From: Pseudomonadota bacterium
GTDB taxonomy: Bacteria; Pseudomonadota; Alphaproteobacteria; Rhodobacterales; Rhodobacteraceae
Length of the DNA stretch: 64,000 nucleotides
Assembly (NCBI GenBank): GCA_020161615.1
Contig: JAIUPD010000006.1
Coordinates: 62,001-126,000, forward strand
Direction: 5' to 3'
Shown: positions 6,756 to 33,891 of the stretch, piece by piece
Layout of the letters: every line of letters starts with the position of its first letter
Numbering within the stretch: position 1 is the first letter of the stretch
The notes under the pieces: generated by a model
What the model saw: the letters and a program-made list of their open reading frames with translations, nothing else
What the model was told of the DNA's origin: nothing
Database searches by the model: none
Position numbers and translations under genes: made by a program

Positions 6756-6780
6756 AACGCCCGGCCCGGCGGATTGTTCC
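6756..6780 (-). promoter_or_regulatory. EcfG-type promoter before the CtaG-like gene
   Basis: GGAACA and GTT are separated by exactly the spacing shared by the other stress promoters of the window (GGAAC-N17-GTT). It reads toward the CtaG-like gene, whose ATG is 151 nt away. Confidence 0.75.
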
Positions 6781-6834
6781 CGCGGTTCCAAGGGCCGCGC
6801 CCGAACGCCCAGCGACCTGTGCAGGACGAGCGCG

Positions 6835-7392
6835 CTATTCCGTCGCCGAGCTCAGTGTCGCGCGGGCGCGATAGATCCGGCTCTTGATGGTGCCGATGTC
6901 GCAATCGAACATGTCGGCAGCGTCCAGATAGCTGACGCCGAGGATCACCACGGCCACGAAGGTTTCGCGGAAATGCGGGGGAAGCGCGTTGATCGCCCGG
7001 ACCGTCTCGCTCATGCGCAAGTGCCAATACTGGCTGTCAATGACGTCGATCGGAACATTGGCAACGCAGTCCTTGCTGCCCGGCTTCTCTCGGGCGCGCT
7101 TGACGCAATTTGAATAGAAGCGGTTGCGCATGATGGTGAAAAGCCAGGCCCTCAGGTTGGTGCCGGGCCGGAAAAGATGGATGTTCTCGATTGCCCGCAG
7201 CAGGGTTTCCTGCACCAGATCGTCGGCTTCCACCGTGTCCTTGCACAACGACCGAGCAAAGAGCCGCAACGGGGGGATGAATTCGATGACCGCCTTTGAC
7301 TGGACCGTATCCAGAGGATCTTCCTGCATCCTCGCCGGCGCATGATCCGCCTGACCTCTGTCAGCGACACGGGCCTCGCACGCATAGTCCAT
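6835..7392 (-). CDS. ecfG: EcfG-type extracytoplasmic function sigma factor
   Basis: The 185-residue protein has sigma region 2 (DDLVQETLLRA, NLRAWLFTIMRN) and region 4 (LPPHFRETF..., GTIKSRIYRARATL), close in wording to EcfG sigma factors that run the alphaproteobacterial general stress response and recognise GGAAC...GTT. I chose the ATG at 7392 because a GGGAG site precedes it; a second Met at residue 22 is an alternative. Many promoters of exactly that class follow in the next 27 kb, which supports the assignment. No canonical PhyR or NepR gene is adjacent; a 55-residue candidate anti-sigma factor lies at 9268-9435. No EcfG-type promoter is visible before this gene, only a GGAAC inside an AGGCCGG/CCGGCCT inverted repeat at 7421-7436 without a matching GTT. 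Confidence 0.8.
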   Translation of the reverse strand: MDYACEARVADRGQADHAPARMQEDPLDTVQSKAVIEFIPPLRLFARSLCKDTVEADDLVQETLLRAIENIHLFRPGTNLRAWLFTIMRNRFYSNCVKRAREKPGSKDCVANVPIDVIDSQYWHLRMSETVRAINALPPHFRETFVAVVILGVSYLDAADMFDCDIGTIKSRIYRARATLSSATE

Positions 7393-7706
7393 TCCGTTTC
7401 TCCCAATTTTCGACTGGATCAGGCCGGTTCCGGCCTGTCCAGCGGGTTCGTTTGTATGCGGGTAACGGACACTCGCGGCTGAGACGGCCTCGCAGGACAC
7501 TCGTCCCCCAAGACAGCGCAGCATTTTCGCAGGACCCCCCCCGCTCCTGTCGTTACGGTGGCGCGCGGGGGAGATATGTCCAACGGCGATTCAGGAAGAA
7601 GGCGGATCTTCGCGCAGGGGCGCCAAATACCGCAGGCAGGAACATCGACCGCCGCTTTCTGTTGACGGCATCCCAGAAGCGATGGAACCCAGAGGAAGGA
7701 CCTGCC
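7393..7706. other. Divergent region between the sigma factor and sodC
   Basis: This 314-bp gene-free stretch holds the sodC stress promoter (7639-7663) and an inverted repeat AGGCCGG-TT-CCGGCCT at 7421-7436, about 30 nt before the sigma factor start, which could be an operator. I see no convincing coding frame in it. Confidence 0.5.
7639..7663 (+). promoter_or_regulatory. EcfG-type promoter before sodC
   Basis: GGAACA, then GTT after a 17-nt spacer counted from GGAAC, 43 nt before the sodC ATG. Matches the promoter class of the island exactly. Confidence 0.85.
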
Positions 7707-8273
7707 ATGCAACGCCCCGCCAAAGCCCCGACCAGGGAACTGACCGCAGCCCGCCGTTTCCGTCTTGCCCGCCTGTGTGCGCTGCCGCTCCTCGCCCTGC
7801 CTGCCATCTTCGTGCCTGCCGCCGCCCAGGCGCAGGGCCAGACCGTGACCATGGTGAACCGCGAGGGCGACACGATCGGCACGGTGGAGTTGACGGCGCT
7901 TAGCGCCGGATTGCTGCTCAGGGTCGATGTCAGCGGCCTGCCGGCCAATGCCCGGCTGGGTTTTCATGTCCACGAGGCCGCGGATTGCGATCCCACGGAG
8001 GCTTTCGAAGGAGCCGGCGGTCATTTCGACCCTTCCGGCGTCGAACACGGCTATTTGACCGAGACAGGCCCCCATGCGGGCGATCTGCCGAATCTTCACA
8101 CGGACGGCGAGGGGGTGGCGCGGGCCGATGTCTTCACACCGTTTCTCCGGTTCGGTCCCGGCGCGGCCTCGACCCACGGGCGCGCGCTCATGATCCATTC
8201 CGGGCCGGACGATTACGAAAGCCAACCCTCGGGCGGAGCGGGCGACAGGCTGGCCTGCGCCGAACTGCCCTGA
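7707..8273 (+). CDS. sodC: Periplasmic Cu/Zn superoxide dismutase
   Basis: Converts superoxide to H2O2 and O2 outside the cytoplasm. A long Sec signal peptide (about residues 1-42, ending AAAQAQ) precedes a Cu/Zn SOD domain with the metal-ligand elements FHVHE, GGHFDPSGVEHG and HGRALMIHSGPDDY and cysteines for the intrasubunit disulfide (ADCDP and near the C-terminus LACAEL). 188 residues, normal for the family. GAGGAAGGA precedes the ATG. It is the first gene behind an EcfG-type promoter and is transcribed away from the sigma gene, so it is a likely direct member of the stress regulon. Confidence 0.92.
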   Translation: MQRPAKAPTRELTAARRFRLARLCALPLLALPAIFVPAAAQAQGQTVTMVNREGDTIGTVELTALSAGLLLRVDVSGLPANARLGFHVHEAADCDPTEAFEGAGGHFDPSGVEHGYLTETGPHAGDLPNLHTDGEGVARADVFTPFLRFGPGAASTHGRALMIHSGPDDYESQPSGGAGDRLACAELP

Positions 8274-8352
8274 TCGCCGGCCAGCCCGCGGCCTTGACGG
8301 CGGCTGCGATCCCGCGAGGTGAGGACGCGCCGTCGGATCGGCTCAGGGTGCA

Positions 8353-8377
8353 GGAACAACAAGCGGAGCAGGCGGTT
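8353..8377 (+). promoter_or_regulatory. EcfG-type promoter
   Basis: GGAACA and GTT with 17-nt spacing, 26 nt before the ATG of the four-TM protein gene; the ribosome site AGGAGG follows within the leader. Confidence 0.85.
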
Positions 8378-8403
8378 CACGGATCGCAACAGGAGGATCT
8401 TCC

Positions 8404-9255
8404 ATGCGCATGATGCCGCAATTGCCCCCGCAAGCCCCCAGCCCCTTGGTCTGTTGGATCAGGGCGGGGGTCGTTTCTTCCATTTTCGTCCTTGCCGCGC
8501 TGGCGCTTCTGGCGCTGGTGCAGGGGCTACCACCGTGGTCGCCGATCAACGCCACGACGCACGCCGTCTATGGGCCTGACGAGGCGCTGGCCGCGGGCGC
8601 GGACCTCGGGCATACCGGGCTGGGGTTGGTGATCAACGTCGCGGCCTGTTTCGTTTGGTCGGCTGTGGCGGTTGTTCTGGCGCTGGCTCTGGTCCGCTCA
8701 GGGGGCCGCGCGGGGCGCGGCTCGGCCTGGATCGCAGGGCTCGGTACGGCGGCTATCGCCGGATTCGTCGATTATGCCCTTCTGCCCACCGTGTTGCGTC
8801 CCGGCTGGGAATTGGTCTTGCCGGTCTTCGCCGTCGTCCTGACTTTTGTCGCGCTCGGGATCGGGATGGCGATTCCTCTGCGGCGTCTTATGCCGGGGGC
8901 GAGACAGACGGCAGCCCCGAGGGTGACCGCCACCATCGTGCCGCCGCCGCCCGTACAGCCTGGGGCACAGAACGGGCTTGCGACCCCTGAGGCCCTGCGG
9001 CACCCCCAGCCCGGGGTCATCGACCAGCGGCAGACCAGGATCGACCCGGCCAATACCGTCACCGTGGACCAGAACGCAGAGCAGAGCGAGAGCATGAAGC
9101 AACCCGGTCACCCGGACGAAGATCAGGCCCAGACCGGGCCCGAGATCAGGGTCGCCGGGCGGAAGCAGATGAAGCAACCGCCCAGGCAATGGGACATCGT
9201 CGACGAGGAGAGCGACGAGTCCTTTCCGGCCAGTGACCCGCCGGGCAACTACTGA
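8404..9255 (+). CDS. Four-TM membrane protein with acidic ESFPASDPP tail
   Basis: The first about 165 residues form four hydrophobic helices; the rest (about 165-283) is a proline-, glutamine- and charge-rich cytoplasmic tail ending in DEESDESFPASDPPGNY. That end motif recurs in small alphaproteobacterial stress-associated proteins, but I know of no assigned function. The N-terminal half has no motif I can name. AGGAGG and an EcfG-type promoter precede it closely, so it should be induced with the stress regulon. The two halves look like separate modules, and fusion of a membrane domain to a tail usually found on small proteins is worth noting. Confidence 0.7.
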   Translation: MRMMPQLPPQAPSPLVCWIRAGVVSSIFVLAALALLALVQGLPPWSPINATTHAVYGPDEALAAGADLGHTGLGLVINVAACFVWSAVAVVLALALVRSGGRAGRGSAWIAGLGTAAIAGFVDYALLPTVLRPGWELVLPVFAVVLTFVALGIGMAIPLRRLMPGARQTAAPRVTATIVPPPPVQPGAQNGLATPEALRHPQPGVIDQRQTRIDPANTVTVDQNAEQSESMKQPGHPDEDQAQTGPEIRVAGRKQMKQPPRQWDIVDEESDESFPASDPPGNY

Positions 9256-9267
9256 CAGGTCAGGGCG

Positions 9268-9435
9268 TCAATGCGAGTTGCGGTTGCGGGCCTCGACCGC
9301 GAGCTTCAACTGAAGCGCAAGCTCTGCCAGTTCTTTTGAGACCGGCTCGGCCTCGACCTGCTTGAGCAGTTGCGACAGAGTCCGGTCGAAATGTTCCTCA
9401 GCGGCGGCTGGATCGGGTTGCTTGCGATTGACCAT
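9268..9435 (-). CDS. 55-residue helical protein, candidate NepR-like anti-sigma factor
   Basis: A short frame with a strong AAGGAG site 8 nt before its ATG encodes a charged, fully helical-looking peptide: LSQLLKQVEAEPVSKELAEL is its core. NepR anti-sigma factors have a helix, then E-P-[VL]-P, then a leucine-rich helix, which this resembles, though the usual Tyr and the DRF/LLxxL wording are missing. Its position three genes from the EcfG-type sigma gene fits. It is transcribed opposite to its neighbours and has no stress promoter of its own. The reading frame is well supported; the function is a hypothesis. Confidence 0.55.
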   Translation of the reverse strand: MVNRKQPDPAAAEEHFDRTLSQLLKQVEAEPVSKELAELALQLKLAVEARNRNSH

Positions 9436-9608: not shown

Positions 9609-9633
9609 GGAACATCGGGCCATCCCGCTGGTT
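9609..9633 (+). promoter_or_regulatory. EcfG-type promoter before the SDR gene
   Basis: GGAACA and GTT with 17-nt spacing, 58 nt before the GTG start of the SDR gene. Confidence 0.85.
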
Positions 9634-9691: not shown

Positions 9692-10624
9692 GTGTCCCGC
9701 TCCGCCACCCCCCGTTCCGATCATTCGACCGAGAAGATGCGCACCGAACCGCCGTCGGAGCGGGCCTTGCCCGATTATCCGGCCCCGCCTTTTCCCGAGC
9801 AGAGCCAGAAGCTTCCGGGTAGTTTTCGCGACATGACGCCTCAGCCTGATCATGGCGAGGAAAGCTGGAAGGGCCACGGACGGCTGAAGGGGTCGGTCGC
9901 GCTGATCACGGGAGGCGACAGTGGCATCGGGCGCGCCGTGGCGATCGCCTATGCCCGCGAGGGTGCCGACATTGCCCTGAGCTATCTGGACGAGACCGAG
10001 GATGCGCAGGACACCAAGGCCCTGATCGAGGACGCGGGGCGACGGTGCCTGACCCTGCCCGGGGACATCGCCGATCCCGGAACCTGCCGCGACATCGTTG
10101 CTGCCACGCTGCGGGCATTCGGCCGGATCGACATTCTGGTCAACAATGCCGCGCATCAGCAAACCTTCGATCAACTCGAGGACATCCCGGACGACGAGTG
10201 GCGTCGGACTTTCGCGGTGAACATTGATGCGATGTTCCATCTGGCGAAGGCGGCGGTCGGGCATATGCCGCCGGGCAGCGCCATCATCAACACCGCTTCC
10301 ATCAATTCCGACGATCCCAATCCGACGCTGCTTGCCTATGCAACGACCAAGGGGGCGATCCAGAATTTCACCGCGGGCCTGGCGCAGATGCTGGCCGGCC
10401 GCGGGATCCGGGTGAATTGCGTGGCACCGGGGCCGGTCTGGACGCCGCTCATTCCTGGCAGCATGGCGCCGGAAAAGGTCGCGAATTTCGGCAAGAACAG
10501 TCCGCTGAAGCGGCCCGCGCAACCCGTGGAACTGGCCGGCGCCTATGTGATGCTGGCCGAGCCGACCTCGAGCTACGTCTCGGGCGCAACCGTCGCCGTC
10601 ACCGGCGGCAGGCCGCTGATCTGA
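9692..10624 (+). CDS. SDR family oxidoreductase (YghA / general stress protein 39 type)
   Basis: A classical short-chain dehydrogenase with an extra N-terminal arm of about 60 residues typical of the YghA/GSP39 group. Visible elements: TGGDSGIG (NAD(P) binding), NNAA, a catalytic Ser region (NTASIN) and YATTK (Tyr-x3-Lys), with a TGG end near the C-terminus. 310 residues. I chose the GTG at 9692 because GGGAGG precedes it; the first ATG would be 15 codons later. Substrate unknown; an aldehyde or ketone detoxifying role is typical of the family. Followed 51 nt later by a small membrane protein probably on the same transcript. Confidence 0.88.
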   Translation: MSRSATPRSDHSTEKMRTEPPSERALPDYPAPPFPEQSQKLPGSFRDMTPQPDHGEESWKGHGRLKGSVALITGGDSGIGRAVAIAYAREGADIALSYLDETEDAQDTKALIEDAGRRCLTLPGDIADPGTCRDIVAATLRAFGRIDILVNNAAHQQTFDQLEDIPDDEWRRTFAVNIDAMFHLAKAAVGHMPPGSAIINTASINSDDPNPTLLAYATTKGAIQNFTAGLAQMLAGRGIRVNCVAPGPVWTPLIPGSMAPEKVANFGKNSPLKRPAQPVELAGAYVMLAEPTSSYVSGATVAVTGGRPLI

Positions 10625-11014: not shown

Positions 11015-11623
11015 TCAGAAGCCCAACGCATAGATCGCGACCGGCAGGCCCATTAGCGGTAGCAGCGACAAGGCGATCAGCAGCCCGTCCCGGGCCAGCA
11101 ACCCCGCAGCGCAGAGCGCGATGGCCGCCGAGGCGATGGACCCGGTACTCGGTACGAACTCCATGAGCGGCATGGCCAGTGCCAGGAACAGGATCAGTGT
11201 CAGCGGCACCCAGCGCCAGGGTCGGTGGGTCAGAAAGGACCATCTCGGCCTGAGATACCGCTCCACCGCGCGAACCGGCTTGCGCAGCCAGCCGATGGCG
11301 CGGAGGAGCGTGCGGCTTTTCAACTCTCTCTGGGTGATGAAGCGCGGCAACCAGGCGTGGTCGCGCCCGACGATCATTTGCGCCGCCAGCAGGAAGACGA
11401 TCAACGCCACGGCGGTGGTAAGACCGGGAATCGTGCTGGCCGGAGAGGTGGAGATCAGCGAAAAGATCAACATCTGCGCCGGGAACGAACGATCCTCCAG
11501 CCGGTCGATGATATGCTGGACACTGGTCCTGTCACCCTCGACCGAGTGTTCCAGCGCGTCGAGGACCTCGCTCAACGAACGCTGTTCCGGCGATGCCTGG
11601 GCTGTTGATGGCGGCGCTGTCAC
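11015..11623 (-). CDS. ExoD-like exopolysaccharide synthesis membrane protein
   Basis: The 202-residue protein shows the ExoD family pattern: a short N-terminal cytoplasmic helix (LSEVLDALEHSVEGDRTSVQ), then paired hydrophobic segments including SLISTSPASTIPGLTTAV and a terminal LLPLMGLPVAIYALGF. ExoD was first linked to exopolysaccharide production and alkaline tolerance in rhizobia; the molecular role is not established. The GTG at 11623 is chosen because GGAGGAAGG precedes it. An EcfG-type promoter lies 79 nt upstream, back to back with one reading toward the caa3 oxidase operon. Confidence 0.8.
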   Translation of the reverse strand: MTAPPSTAQASPEQRSLSEVLDALEHSVEGDRTSVQHIIDRLEDRSFPAQMLIFSLISTSPASTIPGLTTAVALIVFLLAAQMIVGRDHAWLPRFITQRELKSRTLLRAIGWLRKPVRAVERYLRPRWSFLTHRPWRWVPLTLILFLALAMPLMEFVPSTGSIASAAIALCAAGLLARDGLLIALSLLPLMGLPVAIYALGF

Positions 11624-11702: not shown

Positions 11703-11727
11703 AACCCGCAAGGCTGCGGCATGTTCC
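11703..11727 (-). promoter_or_regulatory. EcfG-type promoter before the ExoD-like gene
   Basis: On the minus strand, GGAACA and GTT with 17-nt spacing, 79 nt before the GTG start. Confidence 0.85.
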
Positions 11728-11750: not shown

Positions 11751-11775
11751 GGAACAAAGCTGTCTGCCGTCTATT
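11751..11775 (+). promoter_or_regulatory. Variant EcfG-type promoter before the caa3 oxidase operon
   Basis: GGAACA is followed at the standard spacing by ATT instead of GTT (ATTGATG), 27 nt before the subunit II ATG. The position is right but one conserved base of the -10 element differs, so activity is less certain than for its neighbours. Confidence 0.5.
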
Positions 11776-17381: not shown

Positions 17382-17525
17382 GGGACGGGAAGCAGGGACG
17401 CGGTGCGCAGACGGGACAGGGGCTCGACTGCCCATTCGTTGGCTGCATCGTGAAACCGGAAAAACCGATGCATTCCCCGCTGCCGTCGCGTCCGGTTGAC
17501 ATGCGGACCGCGACCCTTGAAACAT

Positions 17526-17550
17526 AACCGATGGCTGACGGAAATGTTCC
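17526..17550 (-). promoter_or_regulatory. Orphan EcfG-type promoter reading into the cytochrome c gene from its 3' side
   Basis: A perfect GGAACA / GTT pair with 17-nt spacing lies just behind the DUF305 stop and reads leftward, into the 3' end of the caa3-operon cytochrome gene. No convincing minus-strand coding frame follows, so a small or antisense RNA is possible. Confidence 0.6.
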
Positions 17551-20652: not shown

Positions 20653-20677
20653 AACCTGCTGGGGCCGCGGATGTTCC
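20653..20677 (-). promoter_or_regulatory. EcfG-type promoter before katE
   Basis: On the minus strand, GGAACA and GTT with 17-nt spacing, 62 nt before the katE ATG. Confidence 0.88.
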
Positions 20678-20725: not shown

Positions 20726-20750
20726 GGAACATTGCGGCGGCCCGCCGGTT
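20726..20750 (+). promoter_or_regulatory. EcfG-type promoter before the PRC-barrel gene
   Basis: GGAACA and GTT with 17-nt spacing, 70 nt before the ATG. Starts 49 nt from the divergent katE promoter. Confidence 0.88.
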
Positions 20751-21237: not shown

Positions 21238-24200
21238 TCAGGGCCCGACCGGCACGTCGATCCGGACCTCGAGCCCGGCGGGGTCGAAGGAGAGCGTCAG
21301 CTTCCCTTGCAGCCTGTACTCGATCTCGCCTTGCAGCAATTCGCCCCCAAAGCCCTTGTCCTCGGGCGGGGTGACCAGGGGCCCGCCGGACTCGCGCCAG
21401 AGGATCCGCAGAGTTCCGGCCTCGACCGACCACCTGATCTGAACCCTGCCCCCTTCGGCTGAAAGAGCGCCATATTTCACGGCATTTGTCGTCAGTTCAT
21501 GCACGGCCATTGCCAGCGACAGGCCCATCTGGGGCGGCAGGTTCAGATCCTCGCCCTGCAACGTGAAAGCATGCTCGCCGTGGGGAGCCAGTTCCTCGGA
21601 CAGGATTTCCAGCAGTGAGGCGTTCTTCCAGCGCTCCCGCGACAAGGTTCCATAGGTTCGGCTCAAGGCGCCCAACCGGCCGAGGAAGGCGTATTCGAAG
21701 GATTTCAGGTCAGACGCCCTCTCCAGGGTACGGCGCGAAATCGCCGAGACCACCAGCAGCAGGTTCTTCACCCTGTGGTTCAGCTCATCCACCAGCACCT
21801 GCTGGTGCTGTTCGGCTTCCGCCAGCTGCGTGACATCGACGAAAGTCACGACCACGCCGCCGATCGCCGCGCTGCCGGTCCGGTAGGGATTGAGGCGCAG
21901 CAGATATTGTCGCCCCTCGGCATCGGGCGCCAATTGCCGCTGCGCGGGTTCGCCGAAGCGGAACACGCGGTCGATCTCGTCCCGCAGGTCGGGGTAATCC
22001 CGTGCACTGGACAGGTCGGTCAGGGGCCGACCCACATCGCTGTCGCGAAGGTTGAAGAACGCGGCGGCAGCGGGCGTGAAACTGCGGATCACCAGCGCCT
22101 GGTCCAGAAAAATCGTGGCTATCGCCGTGCTTTCGAACAGGTTCTGAAGGTCGCTGTTGGCGCGGTCCAGCTCGTCGATCTTGTCGTTCAGTTCGGCGTT
22201 GATCGTGTTCAGTTCCTCGTTCAGCGACTGCGTTTCCTCTTTCGAGGCTTCGAGTTCTTCATTCGCCGATTGCACCTCCTCGTTGACCGAGGTCAGCTCC
22301 TCATTCGAGGATTTCAGCTCCTCAAGCGCCGTCTCGTATTCCTCGATGGTGGCTTGCAGCCGCTCCTTGGTGTCGCGCAGTTCCTGCTCGTATTCGCCGT
22401 GGCGGCGCACCTCCTCCTCGCCGGCCATCGTCAGCGCGTCGGCATCAGGACTTCCGCGAAGTTCGAAGACGACCAGGTAAAGCGGCTCGATCCCTTTGGG
22501 ATCGTTCAGCGGCTCCACGCTCACGTCGACCAGTTGGATCGGTTCGCCCTCGGTCTCGATAGGCAGGCTCTGGCGGGTGACGCGCTTCTGCGCGCTCACG
22601 CATTCGCGCAGTGCACCGCGCAGATCCAGCCGCAAGCCGCGCCGCGCCAATGTCAGCAGGTGGCGGCTGGGCGCACCCTGCGGGGCCTCCAGAAAGCGGC
22701 CCGTTCCTGACGAGTAATAAACGATGTCCGCCTCGGCCGTGACCGCAACATGCGCTGGCGCGTAGCGTTCGAGTATCCGCGCCTCAATCCGGCTGCGCAG
22801 GGAACCCGCGCGTTCTTTCTGCATGCTGGCAGTTCCTTCGGAAAAATTCCGCGACCGGCCTTGTCCGGTAAGCGCGGGCACCCGCAGCGACCGGCCCGCC
22901 TGTTCGCGCGCCTGGTAGATGCGGTGTTTCTTGTCGACCGTGGCGAAGAGATCGCCGTGCTGCCCGATGCTTTCGGAACTGCCGAGGAACAGGTAGCCGC
23001 CCGGCCGCAGCGAATAGTGGAAAGTCGGAATCACGTGGCGTTGCACGTCCGGGCCGAAATAGATCAGCAGGTTCCGGCAGGATACCATGTCCATCCGCGA
23101 AAACGGCGGATCGCGCACCAGACTGTGCGGCGAGAAGATGCACATCTCGCGGATCTCGGCGGTCACGACCCGGCTGTCGCCGTCGGGCTTGAAGAAACGC
23201 TGGACGCGCGGCGGGTCGATATCGGTCAGCAGGCTGTCGGGATAGCGCCCGGTCCGCGCCACCGAAAGCGCCGCCTCGTCGATGTCGGTGGCAAAGATCT
23301 GAACCTGTGGGGGGCGTTCCATGCGGTCCATCTGTTCACGGAACAGGATGGCCAGGGAATAGACCTCTTCGCCCGTCGAACAGCCCGGCACCCAGATCCG
23401 CAGGACATCGCCCGAGGATTTGCCCTCGAACAGCCGCGGGACGATGTCGCGTTCGAGCAGAGCGAAGGCATCGGCATCGCGAAAGAAATTCGTGACGTTG
23501 ATCAGGAGGTCGCGGAACAGATTGCCGATCTCCACGGGATCGGTGCGCAGCAATTCCAGGTAAGCATCGAGCGTCTGGAGCTGCCGGACCTGCAGCCGGC
23601 GATAGACCCGACGAAAGAAGGTGCGGGTCTTGTAGCCGGAAAAGTCGTGGCTCGAATGGGTGGCGAGGATGGCGCAGATATCGCGATGGATGCGCTCAAG
23701 CTCAACCGCGCGATGGGCATCGCCCGCCCGGCTCACGGCGGTTAGCGCTTCGAAACTGCGGGCGAAGATTTCGAGCCGTTGCGGCATCGCCTCCGGCCCC
23801 AGCTCCAGGTCGATCACACCACTCGACACTGCGCTTTCGGGCATGGTGGCGGTGTCGGCCGTCTCGGCCGGGGTCTTCCGGGCCAACGTCAGCCCGCCCG
23901 CCTCGCGGATCACCTTCGAGCCGAGTGTACCATCGCCGTCGTCGCCTGCCAGCAGGACGCCAACCGCGTATTCGCCCTGATCCTCGGCCAGCGACGCAAA
24001 GAAATGGTCGATGGGCCGGGGATCGCGATGGCTTGGCTCGGGCTCTTTCAGATAGAGCTTCCCGTCCCGGATCGTCGCAAGGCAAGGATGCGGCACCAGA
24101 TAGGCATGGCCAGCCGCAACCGACACGCCATCGTCGGCCATGCGGACCCGGACCGCCGAGACCGCGGATAGCTGCGCAGGGAGATCGTGCCATGAGGCAG

Positions 24201-24330
24201 TCTCGACCGGCGGAATGACGATCATCGCGAAACTGGGTTCCTCGGCGAAGCCGCTGAAGAAGGTTAGCAACGTCTTGTCCGCGCCGCTCGAACAGCCAAT
24301 TCCCACGATCGGATATCTGCTATCGGGCAT
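21238..24330 (-). CDS. CheB/CheR-PAS-HWE hybrid sensor histidine kinase
   Basis: Domains in order over 1030 residues: CheB-like (about 5-190), CheR methyltransferase (about 225-480, SAM motif VPGCSTGEEVYSLA), a Glu-rich coiled coil (SSNEELTSVNEEVQSANEEL), a PAS domain, and an HWE/HisKA_2 kinase with phosphoacceptor ELNHRVKNLL and ATPase box AVHELTTNAVKYG. The CheB part is degenerate: the usual GxSxGG reads GCSSGAD and the catalytic-His segment reads IVIPPVET without His, though the DG of GDDGDGTLG remains. The ATG at 24330 has a GGAAAG site. HWE kinases of this build commonly feed PhyR in the general stress response. Divergent from a receiver protein gene. Confidence 0.88.
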   Translation of the reverse strand: MPDSRYPIVGIGCSSGADKTLLTFFSGFAEEPSFAMIVIPPVETASWHDLPAQLSAVSAVRVRMADDGVSVAAGHAYLVPHPCLATIRDGKLYLKEPEPSHRDPRPIDHFFASLAEDQGEYAVGVLLAGDDGDGTLGSKVIREAGGLTLARKTPAETADTATMPESAVSSGVIDLELGPEAMPQRLEIFARSFEALTAVSRAGDAHRAVELERIHRDICAILATHSSHDFSGYKTRTFFRRVYRRLQVRQLQTLDAYLELLRTDPVEIGNLFRDLLINVTNFFRDADAFALLERDIVPRLFEGKSSGDVLRIWVPGCSTGEEVYSLAILFREQMDRMERPPQVQIFATDIDEAALSVARTGRYPDSLLTDIDPPRVQRFFKPDGDSRVVTAEIREMCIFSPHSLVRDPPFSRMDMVSCRNLLIYFGPDVQRHVIPTFHYSLRPGGYLFLGSSESIGQHGDLFATVDKKHRIYQAREQAGRSLRVPALTGQGRSRNFSEGTASMQKERAGSLRSRIEARILERYAPAHVAVTAEADIVYYSSGTGRFLEAPQGAPSRHLLTLARRGLRLDLRGALRECVSAQKRVTRQSLPIETEGEPIQLVDVSVEPLNDPKGIEPLYLVVFELRGSPDADALTMAGEEEVRRHGEYEQELRDTKERLQATIEEYETALEELKSSNEELTSVNEEVQSANEELEASKEETQSLNEELNTINAELNDKIDELDRANSDLQNLFESTAIATIFLDQALVIRSFTPAAAAFFNLRDSDVGRPLTDLSSARDYPDLRDEIDRVFRFGEPAQRQLAPDAEGRQYLLRLNPYRTGSAAIGGVVVTFVDVTQLAEAEQHQQVLVDELNHRVKNLLLVVSAISRRTLERASDLKSFEYAFLGRLGALSRTYGTLSRERWKNASLLEILSEELAPHGEHAFTLQGEDLNLPPQMGLSLAMAVHELTTNAVKYGALSAEGGRVQIRWSVEAGTLRILWRESGGPLVTPPEDKGFGGELLQGEIEYRLQGKLTLSFDPAGLEVRIDVPVGP

Positions 24331-24554: not shown

Positions 24555-25151
24555 ATGGACAAAAGCTCAGGAGGAAGAGGTTTGCGTATCCTGATTGTAG
24601 AAGACGACTTCATCGGGGCACAACAACTGGCATCTGAGATTCGCAGCACCGGCAACAGCGTGATCGGACCCTTTCCCACGCTGAGTCTGGCCATGCCCCA
24701 TGTGGGATCCATCGACGCCGCCATTCTCGATGTCTGGCTGGGCAATACCGTTTCATTCCCGGTGGCCGACGCGCTGGTGCGTGCCGGAGTGCCCTTTCTG
24801 TTTCTCACGGCTCATGACAGCCGCAAGGTGCCCGACAGGTTGAGCCATGTGCGGATCTTCGCCAAACCCAGCAGTACCGACACCTTGCTTCATGCGCTCG
24901 AGATGCCCGAGATCGTCTTAGAGACCCCCGGCGCGAACGGGGAGCCGGTCGAAAGCGTGCTGCTGGAATTGATCGAACAGGCGAGTTCCGTCCTGCCCGA
25001 CAGGTCGGCGGCAGAGCGCCTCGTTGCCTCGGTCCTGCGCGAGGCCATCTCGAACGCCGGGGATCGGCGCGATGGCGAAGACATCGGCGAATGGCTCCGC
25101 GATTTGCTGAACGACGAACTGCGCAACCACCGGGGCCGGCACTTCCACTGA
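24555..25151 (+). CDS. Response regulator receiver protein with unassigned C-terminal region
   Basis: Residues 10-120 are a receiver domain with acidic pocket ED-D (17-18), phosphoacceptor Asp59 (ILDVWL), Thr85 (FLTAHD) and Lys104 (IFAKPS). The C-terminal 75 residues are helical with no DNA-binding motif I recognise, so it is not an obvious transcription factor, nor does it have a PhyR-type sigma-like N-terminal domain. It is encoded divergently from the CheB/CheR/HWE kinase, its most likely phosphodonor. It could act as a single-domain relay or phosphate sink toward the stress pathway. Confidence 0.8.
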   Translation: MDKSSGGRGLRILIVEDDFIGAQQLASEIRSTGNSVIGPFPTLSLAMPHVGSIDAAILDVWLGNTVSFPVADALVRAGVPFLFLTAHDSRKVPDRLSHVRIFAKPSSTDTLLHALEMPEIVLETPGANGEPVESVLLELIEQASSVLPDRSAAERLVASVLREAISNAGDRRDGEDIGEWLRDLLNDELRNHRGRHFH

Positions 25152-25260: not shown

Positions 25261-25285
25261 GGAACAAGCCGGGGTCGCAGCTGTT
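25261..25285 (+). promoter_or_regulatory. EcfG-type promoter before the split PRC-barrel gene
   Basis: GGAACA and GTT with 17-nt spacing, 62 nt before the ATG. Confidence 0.85.
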
Positions 25286-26962: not shown

Positions 26963-26987
26963 AACCCATGCCCCGTTGCGATGTTCC
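26963..26987 (-). promoter_or_regulatory. EcfG-type promoter before the flavin reductase gene
   Basis: On the minus strand, GGAACA and GTT with 17-nt spacing, 56 nt before the ATG. Confidence 0.85.
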
Positions 26988-27036: not shown

Positions 27037-27061
27037 GGAACATTGTGCCCGAGCGGCGGTT
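27037..27061 (+). promoter_or_regulatory. EcfG-type promoter with a long leader
   Basis: GGAACA and GTT with 17-nt spacing. The nearest plus-strand gene starts 242 nt further on, unusually far for this island. Confidence 0.75.
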
Positions 27062-27561: not shown

Positions 27562-27586
27562 GGAACATCCCGACCTTGGGTCAGTT
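27562..27586 (+). promoter_or_regulatory. EcfG-type promoter before the YciF-like gene
   Basis: GGAACA and GTT with 17-nt spacing, 94 nt before the ATG. Confidence 0.85.
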
Positions 27587-28292: not shown

Positions 28293-28317
28293 GGAACAAA
28301 GGCGCGATGCGCCGGTT
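28293..28317 (+). promoter_or_regulatory. EcfG-type promoter before the BON-domain gene
   Basis: GGAACA and GTT with 17-nt spacing, 52 nt before the ATG. Confidence 0.85.
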
Positions 28318-28369: not shown

Positions 28370-29101
28370 ATGGCCTATCGACATCAAGACTATGACCGCG
28401 ACTGGGACGAGTCTCGCGAGCGGCGCTTCCGCGACGACCGGGCCGACCGGGACGAGCGTTTCGGAAGCCGGGACCGCGGCGGCTATGACACGCGCTTCCG
28501 GGGCGGGCGCGACAGTGACTACGGCAGCGACGACCGCTATGACCGGGATCGGCGCGACAGCGGGATCTATGGCGCCGAGGGCCGTGGTCAGGGTGGTTAC
28601 GAGGGTAGCCAGCAATACGCCGGATCTCGCGGGGACGTCGATCGCGACGGCGCCCGGGGCTGGCGCGAGGCGGGCTATCCCGGCACGCGGCAGGGCGACG
28701 ACCCGGCCGGCGGCCGGGGCTTCGGGGGCGAAGGCCCTGGCGTCGGGCAGTTCGGCACCTACAGCGAGGGGTCGGACAGCCAGCGGCGCGGCCGTATGGC
28801 GGAAGGTGAGCACCGGGGCAAGGGACCCAAGGACTACACCCGCAGCGACCAGCGCATCCAGGAGGATGCCTGCGACCGGCTCGCCGATGACAGCCACCTC
28901 GACGCCTCGAACATCACGGTGGCCGTTTCCAAGGGCGAGGTGACGCTGGACGGCACCGTCGGCTCCCGGGCCGATAAGCGCCGGGCCGAGGATTGCGTCG
29001 ATGGCTGTTCGGGCGTCCGGCATGTGCAGAACAATCTGCGCGTTCAGGAAAGCGGCTCCAGCAGCACGGAGCAGACACGCAACCGCGCCAAGCAGGCCTG
29101 A
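28370..29101 (+). CDS. BON-domain protein with Arg/Asp/Gly/Tyr-rich N-terminal region
   Basis: The first about 150 of 243 residues are disordered and rich in Arg, Asp, Gly and Tyr (DRDWDESRERRFRDDRADRD at the start). The C-terminal about 75 residues form one BON domain: SDQRIQEDACDRLADD, ITVAVSKGEVTLDGTVGSR, VRHVQNNLRVQE. BON domains bind phospholipid or cell-envelope surfaces, yet no signal peptide is present, so this is predicted cytoplasmic. AAGGAGGA lies before the ATG. The disordered arm resembles hydrophilic desiccation-tolerance proteins in composition; that is inference. Confidence 0.85.
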   Translation: MAYRHQDYDRDWDESRERRFRDDRADRDERFGSRDRGGYDTRFRGGRDSDYGSDDRYDRDRRDSGIYGAEGRGQGGYEGSQQYAGSRGDVDRDGARGWREAGYPGTRQGDDPAGGRGFGGEGPGVGQFGTYSEGSDSQRRGRMAEGEHRGKGPKDYTRSDQRIQEDACDRLADDSHLDASNITVAVSKGEVTLDGTVGSRADKRRAEDCVDGCSGVRHVQNNLRVQESGSSSTEQTRNRAKQA

Positions 29102-29337: not shown

Positions 29338-29817
29338 TCAGCGGTAGCGCCGCCCGCGGTCGTCGCGATCATCGTCATCGCGGCGGTTTTCCCAGCCGCG
29401 ACGCGACGCTTCGGCGTGACCCCGCGGGTCGCCGAACCAGCCGCCCTGGCCGTGATCGCGCGACGAGCCACCGCCGTAACCGCGCCGGTCATCCTCGTAG
29501 CGGTCCGAGGAGCGGCCGCGCGAATAGCGGTCGTCGTCGTCGCGGCGATGGTCCCAGCCGCGACGCGACGCTTCGGCGTGCCCGCGCGGATCGCCGTACC
29601 ATCCCCCATGCCCGCGGTCGTCATCCCGCGAGCGGCGATAGTCGTCATCGCGCCGCTCGGCGCGGGAATAGCCGCGCCGATGATCGTCATCGCTGACGAA
29701 GCGGCCCTGGTCGTCACGATCCCGGTCATAGCGGCCATAGCCGCGGTCCCGATGATCATAGTCGTCGTCGCTCATGAAACGGCCGCGGTCGTCGCGGTCC
29801 GGCATGTATCGAGCCAT
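29338..29817 (-). CDS. Repeat-rich hydrophilic stress protein with two WFGDPRGH modules
   Basis: 159 residues, almost entirely charged. Two pairs of internal repeats: DRDDRGRFMSDDD (7-19) with DRDDQGRFVSDDD (33-45), and GGWYGDPRGHAEASRRGW (71-88) with GGWFGDPRGHAEASRRGW (125-142), separated by Asp/Arg-rich linkers. The W-[FY]-GDP-x-GH motif occurs in many alphaproteobacterial small stress proteins, sometimes with BON domains; no function is established. The Met at 29817 is chosen because GAGGAGG lies correctly before it. A stress promoter lies 93 nt upstream. It is convergent with the BON gene of similar composition. Confidence 0.8.
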   Translation of the reverse strand: MARYMPDRDDRGRFMSDDDYDHRDRGYGRYDRDRDDQGRFVSDDDHRRGYSRAERRDDDYRRSRDDDRGHGGWYGDPRGHAEASRRGWDHRRDDDDRYSRGRSSDRYEDDRRGYGGGSSRDHGQGGWFGDPRGHAEASRRGWENRRDDDDRDDRGRRYR

Positions 29818-29910
29818 GGTATCCTCCTCGATTTCCATGTTTGGAACGCCAGCACCGTGCTGACGCCCGCGCAGGATCTGGTTTGTGCCCGTCTCCCGCT
29901 GCGGCCCGTC

Positions 29911-29935
29911 AACTGGTGGCCACGGGGGTTGTTCC
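29911..29935 (-). promoter_or_regulatory. EcfG-type promoter before the repeat-rich gene
   Basis: On the minus strand, GGAACA and GTT with 17-nt spacing, 93 nt before the ATG. Confidence 0.82.
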
Positions 29936-30424: not shown

Positions 30425-30449
30425 GGAACATTGCCGGGAAACCCGTGTT
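30425..30449 (+). promoter_or_regulatory. EcfG-type promoter before otsB
   Basis: GGAACA and GTT with 17-nt spacing, 57 nt before the otsB ATG. Confidence 0.85.
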
Positions 30450-30506: not shown

Positions 30507-31268
30507 ATGGCCAGAGAACTCCTCGCCAGGCGCGGGACCGTCGATATCGGCCCGCCAGACCCGGCGCGGCACGCCTTCTTCCTCGATTTCGACGGAACGC
30601 TGGTCGACATTGCGGCGCGCCCCTCGGATGTAGTGCTCGACGCGGGCACGACCGACCTGTTGAGGGCGTTGAAACAGGCGAGCGACGGGGCTCTGGCGAT
30701 CGTGTCGGGGCGCCCGCTCGATGATATCGCGGCCTTGACCGCGGCGATCGGGCCGGCCCTTGTCGGCACGCACGGGGTCGAGATCCGGCACGAAGACGTC
30801 CGATCCGCTGTGTCGCCCAAGGATCAGGCGGTACTCGATGGCGTCGGGCGCAGACTATCGGAACTCGCCCTGACCCATGGTCTTCTTCTGGAAATGAAGC
30901 CCGGCGCCGTCGCCCTGCATTACAGAGGGCGCGCGGATCTCGCTGACCTGTGCCAGGATGCGGTGGCGGCGGCAGCGCGAGACGCGGAACTGCGCATCTT
31001 GGCCGGAAACATGGTCTGCGAGGCGGTCCTGACCGGTTACGACAAAGGGCGCGCGATCAAGACGCTGATGGCGGAGGCGCCCTTCCGGGGCCGGATTCCG
31101 CTGATGATCGGAGATGACATCACGGACGAGGACGGCTTCCGCGCCGCGCAGTCCCTGGGCGGCACCGGCGTGAGCATCGGCCGACCGGAGAGCTGTGCGC
31201 GTCTTGTCTGTCCCGACCGCCATTGGGCCCTGGATTGGCTGCGTGAAGGGCTCGCCCGCCACGCCTGA
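30507..31268 (+). CDS. otsB: Trehalose-6-phosphate phosphatase
   Basis: Hydrolyses trehalose-6-phosphate to trehalose, the second step of the OtsA-OtsB pathway. The 253-residue HAD-fold protein has motif I DFDGTLVD (27-34), SGRPL (motif II region), a GTHGVEIR element and GDDITDEDGF (motif IV), as in the OtsB family. A GGAGG site lies before the ATG. Placed just before otsA with a separate stress promoter for each. Trehalose protects against osmotic, heat and drying stress, in line with the rest of the island. Confidence 0.93.
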   Translation: MARELLARRGTVDIGPPDPARHAFFLDFDGTLVDIAARPSDVVLDAGTTDLLRALKQASDGALAIVSGRPLDDIAALTAAIGPALVGTHGVEIRHEDVRSAVSPKDQAVLDGVGRRLSELALTHGLLLEMKPGAVALHYRGRADLADLCQDAVAAAARDAELRILAGNMVCEAVLTGYDKGRAIKTLMAEAPFRGRIPLMIGDDITDEDGFRAAQSLGGTGVSIGRPESCARLVCPDRHWALDWLREGLARHA

Positions 31269-31274: not shown

Positions 31275-31300
31275 GGAACATTTGCACCACACCGACAGTT
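31275..31300 (+). promoter_or_regulatory. EcfG-type promoter before otsA (one base longer spacer)
   Basis: GGAACA then GTT with 18 instead of 17 nt between GGAAC and GTT, 28 nt before the otsA ATG. otsA may also be reached by read-through from otsB. Confidence 0.65.
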
Positions 31301-31328: not shown

Positions 31329-32732
31329 ATGGCTGGCAGGCTTATTGTGGTATCGAACCGTATCCCGACCGGAGAGGGGGGTGCCGGAGGTCTGATCGTC
31401 GCCTTGCATGACGCCCTGGCCGGTACTGGCGGTGTCTGGATCGGCGCCTTGCCGGATGCGGCGGATGCCCCGGGGGAGACTCTGCAGGCGCTGTCTGAAG
31501 AGCCCTATTCCCGCCTTGGCTACACCCTGAGCCAGGAAGAAATGGAGAACTTCTATCTCGGTTTCTCGAACTCGGTGCTCTGGCCCCTTTGTCACCGGCG
31601 CCCTGATCTTGTCGAACTCAGACTCGAATATGACGCCAGCTATCGTTCGGTGAACAGACGCGTGGCACGGCTGATCGCCGGAATAGCCGACCCCGATGAC
31701 ACGATCTGGGTGCATGATTATCATTTCTTTCCGCTCGCTGCCGAATTGAGAGCCTGTGGGTTGCACAACCGGATCGGGTTCTTTCTGCATATCCCGTTTC
31801 CCTCGCTGGGGGACCTTTCGGTTCTGGCGCAGCCCGAGGATTTCGCCGACTGGCTGGCGCATTACAATCTGGTCGGCCTTCAGACCCAGGCCGATGTCGC
31901 GCGCGCCCTCGAAATGTTCCGGGCTGACCCGCGGGCCGAATTCATGATGGACGGGACGGTCAAGTTTCGTGACCGGATCACCTCGGTGCGGTCATTTCCC
32001 ATCGGCATCGATGTCGAGAGCTTCCAGCGCGACGCTGCGGCCGAAGAGGAACGCCCGTTAGGGCGCGAAGCGCCGGAGACCTATCTCATCGGGGTGGACC
32101 GGCTGGATTATTCGAAGGGCATTCCGAACCGGTTCCTCGCCTTTGGTCGCTACCTCGAGACACGCCCTCACGGCGAGCGGCCTTGCCTTCTTCAGATCGC
32201 CCCACCGTCGCGGGAAAAGGTTCAGGCCTATCACGACATAACCCGCGAACTCGAAGAGATCGCCGGGCATCTGAACGGCGCTTTTGCCGAGCTGGATTGG
32301 ACGCCGCTTCGATATATTCACCGCAACGTTCCGCGCCATCGCCTTGCCCGGCTGTTCCGGGGCGCCCGGGGATGCCTGGTCACGTCCTATGCGGACGGCA
32401 TGAACCTCGTGGCCAAGGAATATGTCGCCGCGCAGGATCCTGCTGATCCAGGGGTCTTGATCCTATCCCGGCTTGCCGGCGCGGCCGAAGAATTGTCGGA
32501 TGCCCTTCTCGTCAACCCGTACGACATAGACGATATCGCGAATGCCATCGAACAGGCGCTGTCGATGCCTCTTCCCGAAAGACAGCGCCGGCACGCTTCC
32601 TGTCTGGCGAAGGTGAAAGCCAATGATGCCGCCAGCTGGGCGCGAGCTTTCCTGAACGTGTTGTCTGTGGTGCCGGGAACCTTGGCCTGGCCCGGCGGGA
32701 TCGATCAGTTCGCTGACGGCGAACTGCTTTAG
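31329..32732 (+). CDS. otsA: Trehalose-6-phosphate synthase
   Basis: Transfers glucose from UDP-glucose to glucose-6-phosphate. The 467-residue GT20 enzyme starts RLIVVSNRIPTGEGGAGGL and has WVHDYHFFPLA, a LIGVDRLDYSKGIPNRFLAF element (phosphate and nucleotide binding) and DGMNLVAKEYVAAQ, all OtsA hallmarks. The ATG at 31329 is preceded by GTAAGGA; an ATG 17 nt earlier is out of frame. The gene is 60 nt behind otsB and completes a trehalose pathway under stress promoters. Confidence 0.94.
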   Translation: MAGRLIVVSNRIPTGEGGAGGLIVALHDALAGTGGVWIGALPDAADAPGETLQALSEEPYSRLGYTLSQEEMENFYLGFSNSVLWPLCHRRPDLVELRLEYDASYRSVNRRVARLIAGIADPDDTIWVHDYHFFPLAAELRACGLHNRIGFFLHIPFPSLGDLSVLAQPEDFADWLAHYNLVGLQTQADVARALEMFRADPRAEFMMDGTVKFRDRITSVRSFPIGIDVESFQRDAAAEEERPLGREAPETYLIGVDRLDYSKGIPNRFLAFGRYLETRPHGERPCLLQIAPPSREKVQAYHDITRELEEIAGHLNGAFAELDWTPLRYIHRNVPRHRLARLFRGARGCLVTSYADGMNLVAKEYVAAQDPADPGVLILSRLAGAAEELSDALLVNPYDIDDIANAIEQALSMPLPERQRRHASCLAKVKANDAASWARAFLNVLSVVPGTLAWPGGIDQFADGELL

Positions 32733-32798
32733 CACGAAGAATCCCGCGCCGCGACCCGGTGGAGTGGCACCCGGCGGACCAGCGGGCGTCCCCGCGGC

Positions 32799-33419
32799 TT
32801 AGCCCGAAGGGGCGTCTTCCTGCCGGCTGCCCGGGCGCGCGGATTGCGCGGTTTCCGCTTCGTCCCGGGCGATGGCAGCCATGTCGCGACCAGTGTCGAC
32901 CGACAGGGGCGCATCGGCGAGGATGTCGCCGTCCTGGCGCGCTGCCGCGTCGTCGGCCTTGATCAGCAACCAGTTCTGCCGCTGGGCGTCCTTAGGACCC
33001 TTCATCCGAACGAGATGCCAGCGACCCCTGAGCTTTTCGCCCCGCAAGGTGAATTCCAGACGCCCTTCGGCATAGCTGCGCGCCGCATCGCCGACCGGCT
33101 CCCACGTGCCGCGGTCCCACAGCATCACCGTCCCGGCGCCATAGGAGCCCCGGGGAATGATACCTTCGAACCTGCCGTAGGCGAGAGAGTGGTCCTCGAC
33201 CTGCACGGCCAGCCGGCGCTCGCCGGGATGCAGGCTGGGGCCGCGGGTAACGGCCCAACTACGCAGAACGCCTTCCATTTCCAGCCTCAGATCGTAGTGC
33301 AAACGGCTCGCGGCGTGTTTCTGAACCACGAAGGATAAGGCCGGCAGGCGGGAGGGTGTCTCGTGCCGCTCGGCTGTCGGGCCCAGTCCGTGCAGATCGG
33401 TCGGGCGTTTCGATGCCAT
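32799..33419 (-). CDS. Stand-alone LigD 3'-phosphoesterase-domain protein
   Basis: 206 residues corresponding only to the phosphoesterase domain of bacterial NHEJ ligase LigD: FVVQKHAASRLHYDLRLEMEG, WAVTRGPSLHPGERRLAVQVEDH, GIIPRGSYGAGTVMLWDRGTWE. The His, Asp and Arg of HxxSxxHxDLRLE-like wording are present. In LigD this domain trims 3' ends; here no ligase, polymerase or Ku gene is visible in the window. GGAGGAGG precedes the ATG. It probably shares the stress promoter of the small gene upstream (152-nt gap, same strand). C-terminal tail is Ala/Arg/Gln-rich. Confidence 0.85.
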   Translation of the reverse strand: MASKRPTDLHGLGPTAERHETPSRLPALSFVVQKHAASRLHYDLRLEMEGVLRSWAVTRGPSLHPGERRLAVQVEDHSLAYGRFEGIIPRGSYGAGTVMLWDRGTWEPVGDAARSYAEGRLEFTLRGEKLRGRWHLVRMKGPKDAQRQNWLLIKADDAAARQDGDILADAPLSVDTGRDMAAIARDEAETAQSARPGSRQEDAPSG

Positions 33420-33571
33420 GGTTCCTCCTCCTTGCCCCACCTGCCGGACGAGATGCCGCCGGTGCAGGCCATCGCCCGGCAGGACGCCAACCGCAGGCAA
33501 GGCGCATGGGTCGATCGTCGGCGGGGGCGTTCGCGGCTCTGAAACGCCGAAGCGGTTCTTGGCGACGGCTC

Positions 33572-33760
33572 TCAGCCGCTTGTCCAAAGCATGATCGCGA
33601 CGGCGATCAGGACAAGCGCCCCGATCCCAGCGGCAATACCGACAATGCGTCCGCCGACGACCGGCTTCAGGGGCCGGTTCGTGACGCTTTCCTTTGCCTC
33701 TGTCGGGGAAGGGGCCGGCGGCGCGTCGCTCCGGTCTTCTGTGGGCGGGGGTCTGGCCAT
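33572..33760 (-). CDS. Small C-terminally anchored membrane protein
   Basis: 62 residues: a Pro/Asp/Glu-rich N-terminal half (ARPPPTEDRSDAPPAPSPTE) and one membrane helix near the C-terminus. GAGGACGG precedes the ATG at 33760. A perfect EcfG-type promoter lies 34 nt upstream, and the phosphoesterase gene follows in the same direction, so the two are probably one transcription unit. No recognised family. Confidence 0.65.
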   Translation of the reverse strand: MARPPPTEDRSDAPPAPSPTEAKESVTNRPLKPVVGGRIVGIAAGIGALVLIAVAIMLWTSG

Positions 33761-33794
33761 TGGTCCGTCCTCGCTTCGGGGCGTGAGACGCCGC

Positions 33795-33819
33795 AACCGG
33801 CAAGGGCCTTGGTTGTTCC
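33795..33819 (-). promoter_or_regulatory. EcfG-type promoter before the small TM gene and LigD-PE gene
   Basis: On the minus strand, GGAACA and GTT with 17-nt spacing, 34 nt before the ATG. Back to back with the promoter at 33867. Confidence 0.85.
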
Positions 33820-33866
33820 CGCCTTGAGTGAGGGCGATCAGGCCGCATCAAGCGGGCCGTTCAGCG

Positions 33867-33891
33867 GGAACATCCTGCTCATGGCCGGGTT
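33867..33891 (+). promoter_or_regulatory. EcfG-type promoter of the ACAD/PIG-L/NodS-like/GT2 operon
   Basis: GGAACA and GTT with 17-nt spacing, 31 nt before the first ATG of the four-gene operon. Confidence 0.88.

Follow-up and report, generated by a model that had tools for sequence, protein, structure and literature searches.

The 64,000-nucleotide stretch analyzed here (the window; contig C6:62001-126000 of a Pararhodobacter-related bacterium whose genome comprises 4,866,760 bases in 26 contigs) contains a 27-kb island of EcfG-class promoter sites beside the gene for EcfG2, a second, non-canonical sigma factor of the EcfG type. We consider that the island is probably an accessory cassette for the general stress response, one that has spread laterally and has a partner switch of its own. 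A NepR-like small protein, a response regulator that joins a receiver to a sigma-region-2-like domain (REC-sigma2), and an HWE histidine kinase are the putative parts of that switch. This reading is carried by the sites and their clustering, the non-canonical clade to which EcfG2 belongs, a distinct promoter signature, the homologies of the partner proteins, and their linkage beside EcfG2 elsewhere. With somewhat less assurance, we lean toward a fuller view in which the window holds a complete second stress system, apart from that of the host and spreading as a cassette, with its own sigma factor, promoter dialect, NepR-like protein, reversed regulator, HWE kinase, and a packed regulon that includes an EcfG-driven small RNA (sRNA) of the Atu_At1 family. 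Coordinates are collected in Table 1.

A preliminary description, made from the sequence alone, had listed 17 exact GGAACA-N16-GTT sites, and a pattern scan located all 17 at the positions and on the strands given in Table 1, together with a variant with N17 spacing (31275+) and another ending in ATT (11751+). The window contains 19 matches to GGAACN-N15/16-GTT versus 1.74 ± 1.38 across 100 shuffles (maximum, 6). In the whole genome, GGAACA-N16-GTT has 43 exact matches, compared to 15 for a backward-pattern control, and 17 of the 43 are inside the 27,136-bp island, where the rate outside would predict 0.15 (117-fold, Poisson P ~1e-29). GGAACB-N16-GTT, where B is any base but A, occurs genome-wide at background (72 matches versus 75 in the control). 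A site was called coding if its frame had a codon score above 8. By this test, a coding frame was found for 0 of the 17 island sites versus 21 of the 26 outside sites (Fisher P = 8e-8). The five outside sites under the threshold are L014, L179, L184, L181, and L010, the last of which is near it at 6.9. L014 (C6:59338), non-coding by this score, lies 2.7 kb left of the window, and because it is so close, the GGAACA cluster may extend to ~37 kb. Most non-coding GGAACA sites of the genome lie in one 27- to 37-kb region, and promoters of this type outside coding DNA are almost confined to it. The shuffles, the backward control, and the codon-score test rule out a chance origin of the sites, and the density comparison, made with the exact pattern rather than a matrix, excludes an equal density elsewhere in the genome. 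The packing had been called unusual. This is true of the host genome, where nothing comparable was found elsewhere, but GGAACA sites also cluster at some EcfG2-type loci of other genera.

The assignment of the sites to the EcfG class and of the adjoining gene to the EcfG-type sigma factors proved correct, and stress genes (SodC, catalase, OtsBA, DUF892, PRC-barrel, and SDR) follow many of the sites. The claim that a general stress regulon is packed beside its own sigma gene was dropped after the canonical phyR-nepR-ecfG core turned up on contig C15, where genes for PhyR, a Pfam NepR, and EcfG have GGAACC...GTT sites on both strands between them. The single match to PF18557 (NepR) in the host genome at an E value of ≤0.001 is on that contig. 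EcfG2 belongs to extracytoplasmic function (ECF) group ECF15 by sequence kinship and by its ECF region 2 and region 4 domains, is 44% identical to the canonical EcfG of the host, and has no Pfam NepR gene beside it, so that its locus does not qualify as a canonical core. In a sigma tree of 101 rows, EcfG2 groups within a clade of 24 rows (100/100), and the 21 canonical Rhodobacteraceae EcfGs fall outside it (L059, too short, was left out of the tree and the clade counts). The clade includes Pararhodobacter marinus, Pseudogemmobacter, Paracoccus, Tabrizicola and other metagenome-assembled genomes, Devosia, and Pleomorphomonas. By its place in this tree, the window sigma factor is a second, non-canonical EcfG and not the general-stress sigma factor of the host, and, with the canonical core on C15, the island looks like a separate accessory regulon. 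The presence of Devosiaceae and Pleomorphomonadaceae within a Rhodobacterales-rich clade suggests lateral transfer of EcfG2, a reading taken from clade membership in the sigma tree.

The promoter signatures of the two kinds of loci also differ. The 23 clade loci (418 kb) contain 141 GGAACx-N15-yGTT sites, 69 with x = A and y = G and 9 with x = C and y = C, whereas the 393 kb around 20 canonical nepR loci from the same family contain 81 such sites, 3 of the A..G form and 32 of the C..C form (Fisher P = 1e-16 for these four counts, with the caution that sites in related loci are not independent). The 56 other loci found with EcfG2 as the query are intermediate (80 A..G and 34 C..C among 314 N15 sites), as is their GGAACA density of 3.0 per 20 kb, compared to 5.4 at clade loci and 0.55 at canonical loci. 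G precedes GTT in 11 of 17 window sites and 9 of 14 P. marinus sites. Judged by these counts, the EcfG2 clade goes with GGAACA-N15-GGTT and the canonical loci go with GGAACC-N15-CGTT. The island sites, clustered beside the sigma gene, are predicted EcfG2 target promoters, and transcription from them is likewise a prediction. Alternatively, the canonical EcfG on C15 might read the island promoters, with EcfG2 a minor feedback or amplifier sigma factor below it, like SigU under SigT. Both sigma factors are of the EcfG family, the -35 core GGAAC is common to both, some GGAACA sites do occur at canonical loci, and a sigma cascade is reported for Caulobacter crescentus (PMC8103513; this and the other papers cited are drawn on in excerpt). 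We consider this arrangement improbable, because the clusters track EcfG2: P. marinus has both sigma factors and a cluster, while two genomes of the same genus, G010 and G006, each show a single EcfG match, at the canonical level of identity, and lack a cluster. In addition, the extended signatures of the two sigma factors differ, and the EcfG2 gene has no EcfG-type site upstream at N16 spacing.

The preliminary description identified the sigma gene and its sites but did not include the NepR-like gene, the REC-sigma2 regulator, the difference in promoter signature, or the sRNA. Canonical NepR profiles gave weak matches, many of them directly beside non-canonical sigma genes. Fourteen seeds for a NepR-like family profile were picked from these weak hits, most of them near sigma genes, so counts of adjacency between NepR-like and sigma genes are partly shaped by selection. 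The iterated profile matched 58 of 30,739 open reading frames (ORFs), namely, 1 in the window, 2 in P. marinus, and the other 55 in as many of the 80 EcfG2-query loci; 39 of these 55 ORFs lie no more than 1 kb from the sigma match. With a cleaned profile, matches were found in 17 of the 23 clade loci and in 37 of the other 56. The family aligns with NepR in hhalign (95.7%, E = 9.5e-9; 30 column shuffles reached 3.8% at most). At E values up to 1 (best, 4e-4), 6 of 22 members have a Pfam NepR match, and among PDB sequences the family comes closest to NepR 5uxx_B, although weakly (E = 0.28). The 55-residue window protein itself gave no NepR match in Pfam and NCBIfam scans, and its link to NepR runs only through the wider family. 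No relative was found in a search of viral contigs. By this homology, the protein is a putative anti-sigma factor that would bind and block EcfG2. P. marinus (presumed to be genome G009) has two NepR-like ORFs, C11:301780-301986 (L118) and 317111-317659 (L119), of which one adjoins EcfG2 and the other an SDR gene; the window has only the SDR-side one.

The tail of REC-sigma2, ~70 residues long, belongs to a family that matches EcfG region 2 (hhalign 98.1%, E = 1e-13; 60 column shuffles gave at most 2.9%), and a profile of the tail alone retrieves the query sigma factor in 78 of 80 loci. Pfam, at E values up to 1, detects PhyR_sigma2 in 8 (best, 5e-6) and Response_reg in 7 of 10 members. Among PDB sequences, the family matches best to Bartonella EcfG, solved with NepR (5uxx_A, E = 6e-6). 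A model of the tail (predicted local distance difference test score of 88) retrieved ECF sigma2 domains in Foldseek at E values of 0.08 or worse, among them 5uxx_A (template-modeling score 0.75, E = 0.13), and the whole protein retrieved response regulators among the 50 matches listed. With a receiver and a sigma-like domain in one protein, REC-sigma2 resembles the PhyR-type anti-anti-sigma factors. Its sigma part is region-2-like only, as 198 residues leave no room for region 4, and its receiver comes first, whereas PhyR has the sigma-like domain first (PMC5830050), an order that the host PhyR on C15 shares by eye. In its receiver, the window protein has D17, D59, and K104, all of them invariant or nearly so across ten members. 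The gene for the CheB-CheR-PAS-HWE kinase is divergent from the REC-sigma2 gene in the window and in P. marinus, and the two are one gene apart on a Paracoccus plasmid. Two Paracoccus proteins, L044 6333-7091(-) and L045 7240-8010(+), have the same sigma2-like tail with a receiver that looks degenerate by eye, which suggests phosphorylation-independent versions.

We propose that stress would cause the kinase to phosphorylate the receiver of REC-sigma2, whose C-terminal sigma2-like domain would then mimic EcfG2 and capture the NepR-like protein. This phosphorylation-dependent capture is putative. Freed EcfG2 would guide RNA polymerase to GGAACA-N15/16-(G)GTT promoters and activate DNA repair and defences against oxidative and osmotic stress, along with two oxidase gene runs and an sRNA. 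The canonical PhyR-NepR-EcfG system on the other contig would use GGAACC-type promoters and be largely separate. We infer every binding, phosphotransfer, and transcription step of this scheme, the wiring of the four proteins, and the lateral transfer from sequence.

The island recurs in part in P. marinus, where 20 of 38 queried window proteins are grouped in one region in another gene order. The shared set includes EcfG2 (84%), the NepR-like protein, kinase, regulator, OtsBA, KatE, SodC, SDR, PRC, and LigD, and a 23-kb stretch next to the P. marinus EcfG2 has 14 exact GGAACA matches. G010 and G006, which lack a close EcfG2, have no cluster (at most 2 and 3 matches per 20 kb). In G010, a close relative, the flanks (C6 up to 55,479 and from 117,683) are present but not joined, and we take the island to be absent from it on the basis of EcfG2, the site cluster, and these flanks. 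Sigma matches in G012, G025, and G001 have 55, 56, and 46% identity, and G004 (160 contigs) has no sigma match over 41% and scattered GGAACA sites.

Relatives of REC-sigma2 were found in 343 plasmid records, with coverage of at least 80% in 39. Twelve of the 20 records listed were fetched for REC-sigma2 only, which makes them a freer test of linkage than the sigma-adjacency counts (L195 and L196 are near-duplicates, and L193 and L198 come from one strain). An EcfG-type sigma gene is present in 8 of the 12 and a NepR-like ORF in 11, with both in 8. Plasmids of several other alphaproteobacteria carry relatives of the set. The 12 loci contain 60 GGAACA sites, versus 3 in a reversed control, and 28 sites with GGAAC followed by C, G, or T. 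On a Ketogulonicigenium plasmid (L200), genes for the regulator, NepR-like protein, sigma factor, and a CheR-type kinase lie in a row, adjoined by catalase, SDR, and PRC genes. The core on plasmid pAK1 of Paracoccus sp. strain AK26 (L194) is compact, comprising the regulator, two NepR-like ORFs, and EcfG2. With GGAACA sites upstream of the sigma gene and the NepR-like genes, this core may be autoregulated, something that is not seen in the window.

The unjoined flanks in G010 and the different gene order in P. marinus mark the region as variable, and the sites could be regulatory with their clustering a by-product, stress genes in a plastic region having a shared EcfG promoter and no dedicated circuit. 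This is very improbable given that site clustering and the A..G signature recur beside EcfG2-type genes in other genera and that GGAACA sites are also found at loci fetched for REC-sigma2 alone. G010 and G006 are only a partial guide to this question.

Several observations weigh against a cassette with its own partner switch. Against the NepR profile, the window NepR-like protein alone ranks 125th of 2001 when compared with shuffles, which is not significant, and it has S where 14 of 22 aligned members have P. Support for the deepest split in the sigma tree is low (76/74), and the program warned that long branches, including the canonical clade, may be joined falsely. Four of the 12 plasmid loci have no EcfG-type sigma gene nearby. 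Two of the 14 P. marinus matches are one palindrome, and another overlaps the end of the sigma gene; a search of the fetched P. marinus region did not find 18 of the 38 window proteins queried, including those of both oxidase runs, DUF892, and ExoD, or the Atu_At1 sRNA. Homologs of island genes at clade loci often lack a site (SDR with a site in 7 of 17 and LigD in 0 of 5, versus DUF892 in 12 of 16). The genes for EcfG2, the NepR-like protein, the kinase, and REC-sigma2 have no upstream N16 site in the window, allowing up to 1 mismatch, so autoregulation of the switch is not seen there. The host also has canonical PhyR and NepR, which makes cross-talk possible. In the window REC-sigma2, Pfam detects only the receiver and that weakly (E = 0.0024). 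Finally, the C-terminal domain of this copy scores lowest among ten members with the EcfG profile (E = 0.0012), and REC-sigma2 was seen within 10 kb of just 12 of 80 EcfG2 loci, with a degenerate-looking receiver in the 2 Paracoccus copies among these 12. These last three points would also fit an arrangement in which EcfG2 and the NepR-like protein cooperate while the input is canonical PhyR and REC-sigma2 serves otherwise or has decayed. We hold this to be unlikely, if worth keeping in view: loci seeded with REC-sigma2 reach a NepR-like ORF on nearly every plasmid sampled, the receiver residues named above are conserved in the window protein, and P. marinus retains the kinase-regulator pair.

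The sRNA (Rfam RF02496, 94.9 bits versus a gathering score of 60) lies directly downstream of the site at 17526(-), and the nearby ORF is antisense to a cytochrome-like gene. In Rfam scans, Atu_At1 was found in 1 of 289 genomes of the class, the host itself, and in none of 21 other loci, including the fetched P. marinus region. BLASTN found relatives of the stretch in 35 plasmid records, of which 9 were fetched. In all 9, GGAAC lies within 2 nucleotides of the same offset, outside the aligned part in 8. GGAAC is followed by A in 5, by C in 2, and by T in 2, and the -10 place is GTT in 4, ATT in 3, and CTT in 2. The Atu_At1 family may thus be EcfG dependent in general.

Like the canonical PhyR-NepR-EcfG (ECF15) system, described as a cascade in Rhodobacter sphaeroides (PMC5830050) and reviewed with the general stress response (PMC8103513, PMC8999054), the island encodes an EcfG-family sigma factor, a NepR-like protein, a regulator with a sigma-like domain, and an HWE kinase and has GGAAC...GTT promoters. 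It differs in being a second set beside a canonical core, in its GGAACA...GGTT signature, in having putative targets packed around the sigma gene, in a NepR-like protein family mostly below library detection, and in a receiver-first regulator with only a sigma2-like part. EcfG2 of Rhizobium etli is likewise a non-canonical EcfG that acts partly independently, belongs to a plasmid-borne subgroup, and has its own targets, e.g., katG, but the excerpt reports no target clustering, NepR-like neighbor, or REC-sigma2, and its authors left NepR control of EcfG2 undecided (Jans et al. 2013, PMC3892343). RpoE5 of Sinorhizobium meliloti is an ECF15 paralog followed downstream by an unannotated, oppositely oriented ORF with a resemblance to RsiA1/RsiA2 (Lang et al. 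2018, PMC6180224), and this RsiA-like ORF anticipates the NepR-like neighbor described here. A NepR-like ORF occupies the RsiA-like position at the Sinorhizobium/Ensifer loci L081, L083, and L087, which we infer to hold rpoE5 itself. In contrast to the island, one putative target upon RpoE5 overexpression and no regulon island are reported in that excerpt. Rubellimicrobium thermophilum has a second PhyR and EcfG with an HWE kinase at a separate locus, but both of its PhyRs are of the sigma-like plus REC type, there is a single NepR homolog, and the excerpt reports no reversed regulator (Swingle et al. 2025, PMC12148442). Methylobacterium extorquens has several EcfG and NepR paralogs and a consensus, GAAC-N16,17-C/GGTT, that covers the GGTT form. 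Unlike what we propose, binding to PhyR was observed for two of its three NepR paralogs and binding to a sigma factor for none of them, and the excerpt reports no packed regulon (PMC4814048). A search of open-licence PMC literature, as far as the retrieved excerpts extend, returned no receiver-sigma2 regulator, packed EcfG2 regulon, or regulator of Atu_At1.

At least two EcfG-like genes were present in half of the completed alphaproteobacterial genomes of 2013, a presence that "has not satisfactorily been explained" (PMC3892343). If our reading is right, many of the additional EcfG genes stand at the head of portable stress systems, each with a promoter dialect and a partner switch of its own, and many "orphan" non-canonical EcfGs would be explained by partners overlooked as too diverged or unannotated. 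The island would then offer a naturally occurring sigma/anti-sigma/promoter set distinct from the canonical one as well as a regulator for sRNAs of the Atu_At1 family, and it would add a second design of response regulator that mimics a sigma factor. The cassette reading would be testable in one organism.

Table 1. Features of the window; promoters and switch roles are predicted
Feature	Coordinates	Strand	Remarks
EcfG2, non-canonical EcfG-type ECF sigma factor, 185 aa	6835..7392	-	Pfam Sigma70_r2, PhyR_sigma2, Sigma70_r4_2
NepR-like protein of 55 aa, putative EcfG2 anti-sigma factor	9268..9435	-	profile from other loci, E 1.1e-5
CheB-CheR-PAS-HWE histidine kinase, putative switch input	21238..24330	-	Pfam CheB, CheR, PAS, HWE_HK
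REC-sigma2 response regulator, 198 aa, putative anti-anti-sigma	24555..25151	+	N-terminal receiver, C-terminal sigma-region-2-like domain
Atu_At1-family sRNA (RF02496)	17405..17510	-	Rfam covariance model
EcfG2-type promoter	6756..6780	-	152 nt before CtaG-like/cytochrome oxidase genes 1700-6604(-)
EcfG2-type promoter	7639..7663	+	before sodC, Cu/Zn superoxide dismutase (7707-8273)
EcfG2-type promoter	8353..8377	+	before 8404-9255, no family, membrane-protein look
EcfG2-type promoter	9609..9633	+	before SDR oxidoreductase 9737-10624
EcfG2-type promoter	11703..11727	-	before ExoD-family gene 11015-11626
ATT variant	11751..11775	+	before second cytochrome oxidase gene run 11803-17381
EcfG2-type promoter	17526..17550	-	before Atu_At1 sRNA
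EcfG2-type promoter	20653..20677	-	before HPII-like catalase gene (18482-20590)
EcfG2-type promoter	20726..20750	+	before PRC-barrel gene 20821-21171
EcfG2-type promoter	25261..25285	+	before PRC-barrel gene 25348-26145
EcfG2-type promoter	26963..26987	-	before FMN reductase 26256-26906
EcfG2-type promoter	27037..27061	+	before small gene 27304-27531 (243 nt away)
EcfG2-type promoter	27562..27586	+	before DUF892 gene 27681-28178
EcfG2-type promoter	28293..28317	+	before BON-domain gene 28370-29101
EcfG2-type promoter	29911..29935	-	before hydrophilic protein gene 29338-29838, no Pfam family
EcfG2-type promoter	30425..30449	+	before otsB (30507-31268)
N17 variant	31275..31300	+	before otsA (31329-32732)
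EcfG2-type promoter	33795..33819	-	before LigD phosphoesterase gene 32799-33785; start codon chosen here
EcfG2-type promoter	33867..33891	+	before run 33923-37239

With gene starts chosen in this analysis, 18 of the 19 sites end 10 to 243 nucleotides upstream of a same-strand protein gene. All but one had been said to precede a gene, which holds for protein genes, and the exception at 17526(-) precedes the sRNA. Two cytochrome oxidase-like runs each follow an island promoter. The first includes a COX1 domain (Pfam, in 1700-4147) and a presumed CtaG-like gene, and the second, 11803-17381(+), is taken to be an oxidase run from its sequence. The catalase scores 889 bits with the NCBIfam catalase HPII model, under its cut-off of 1102. 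In the run 33923-37239, the first gene, without a Pfam family, is presumably acyl-CoA dehydrogenase-like (NCBIfam E value of only 0.016), and PIG-L, methyltransferase, and GT2 genes follow it. No ligase or polymerase domain was found in the LigD 3'-phosphoesterase gene, which has an island promoter upstream. The GGAACA site at C6:59338 precedes a dehydrogenase-like operon, and such a site before this operon also occurs in P. marinus at C1:135937, a different genomic place. The operon (C6:59523) has an ortholog in G006, which has no close EcfG2, without such a site in the fetched stretch, a single case. Within the window, a GGAACC site at 4808-4832(+) lies 59 nucleotides upstream of a DUF2231 gene and is possibly a target of the canonical EcfG.

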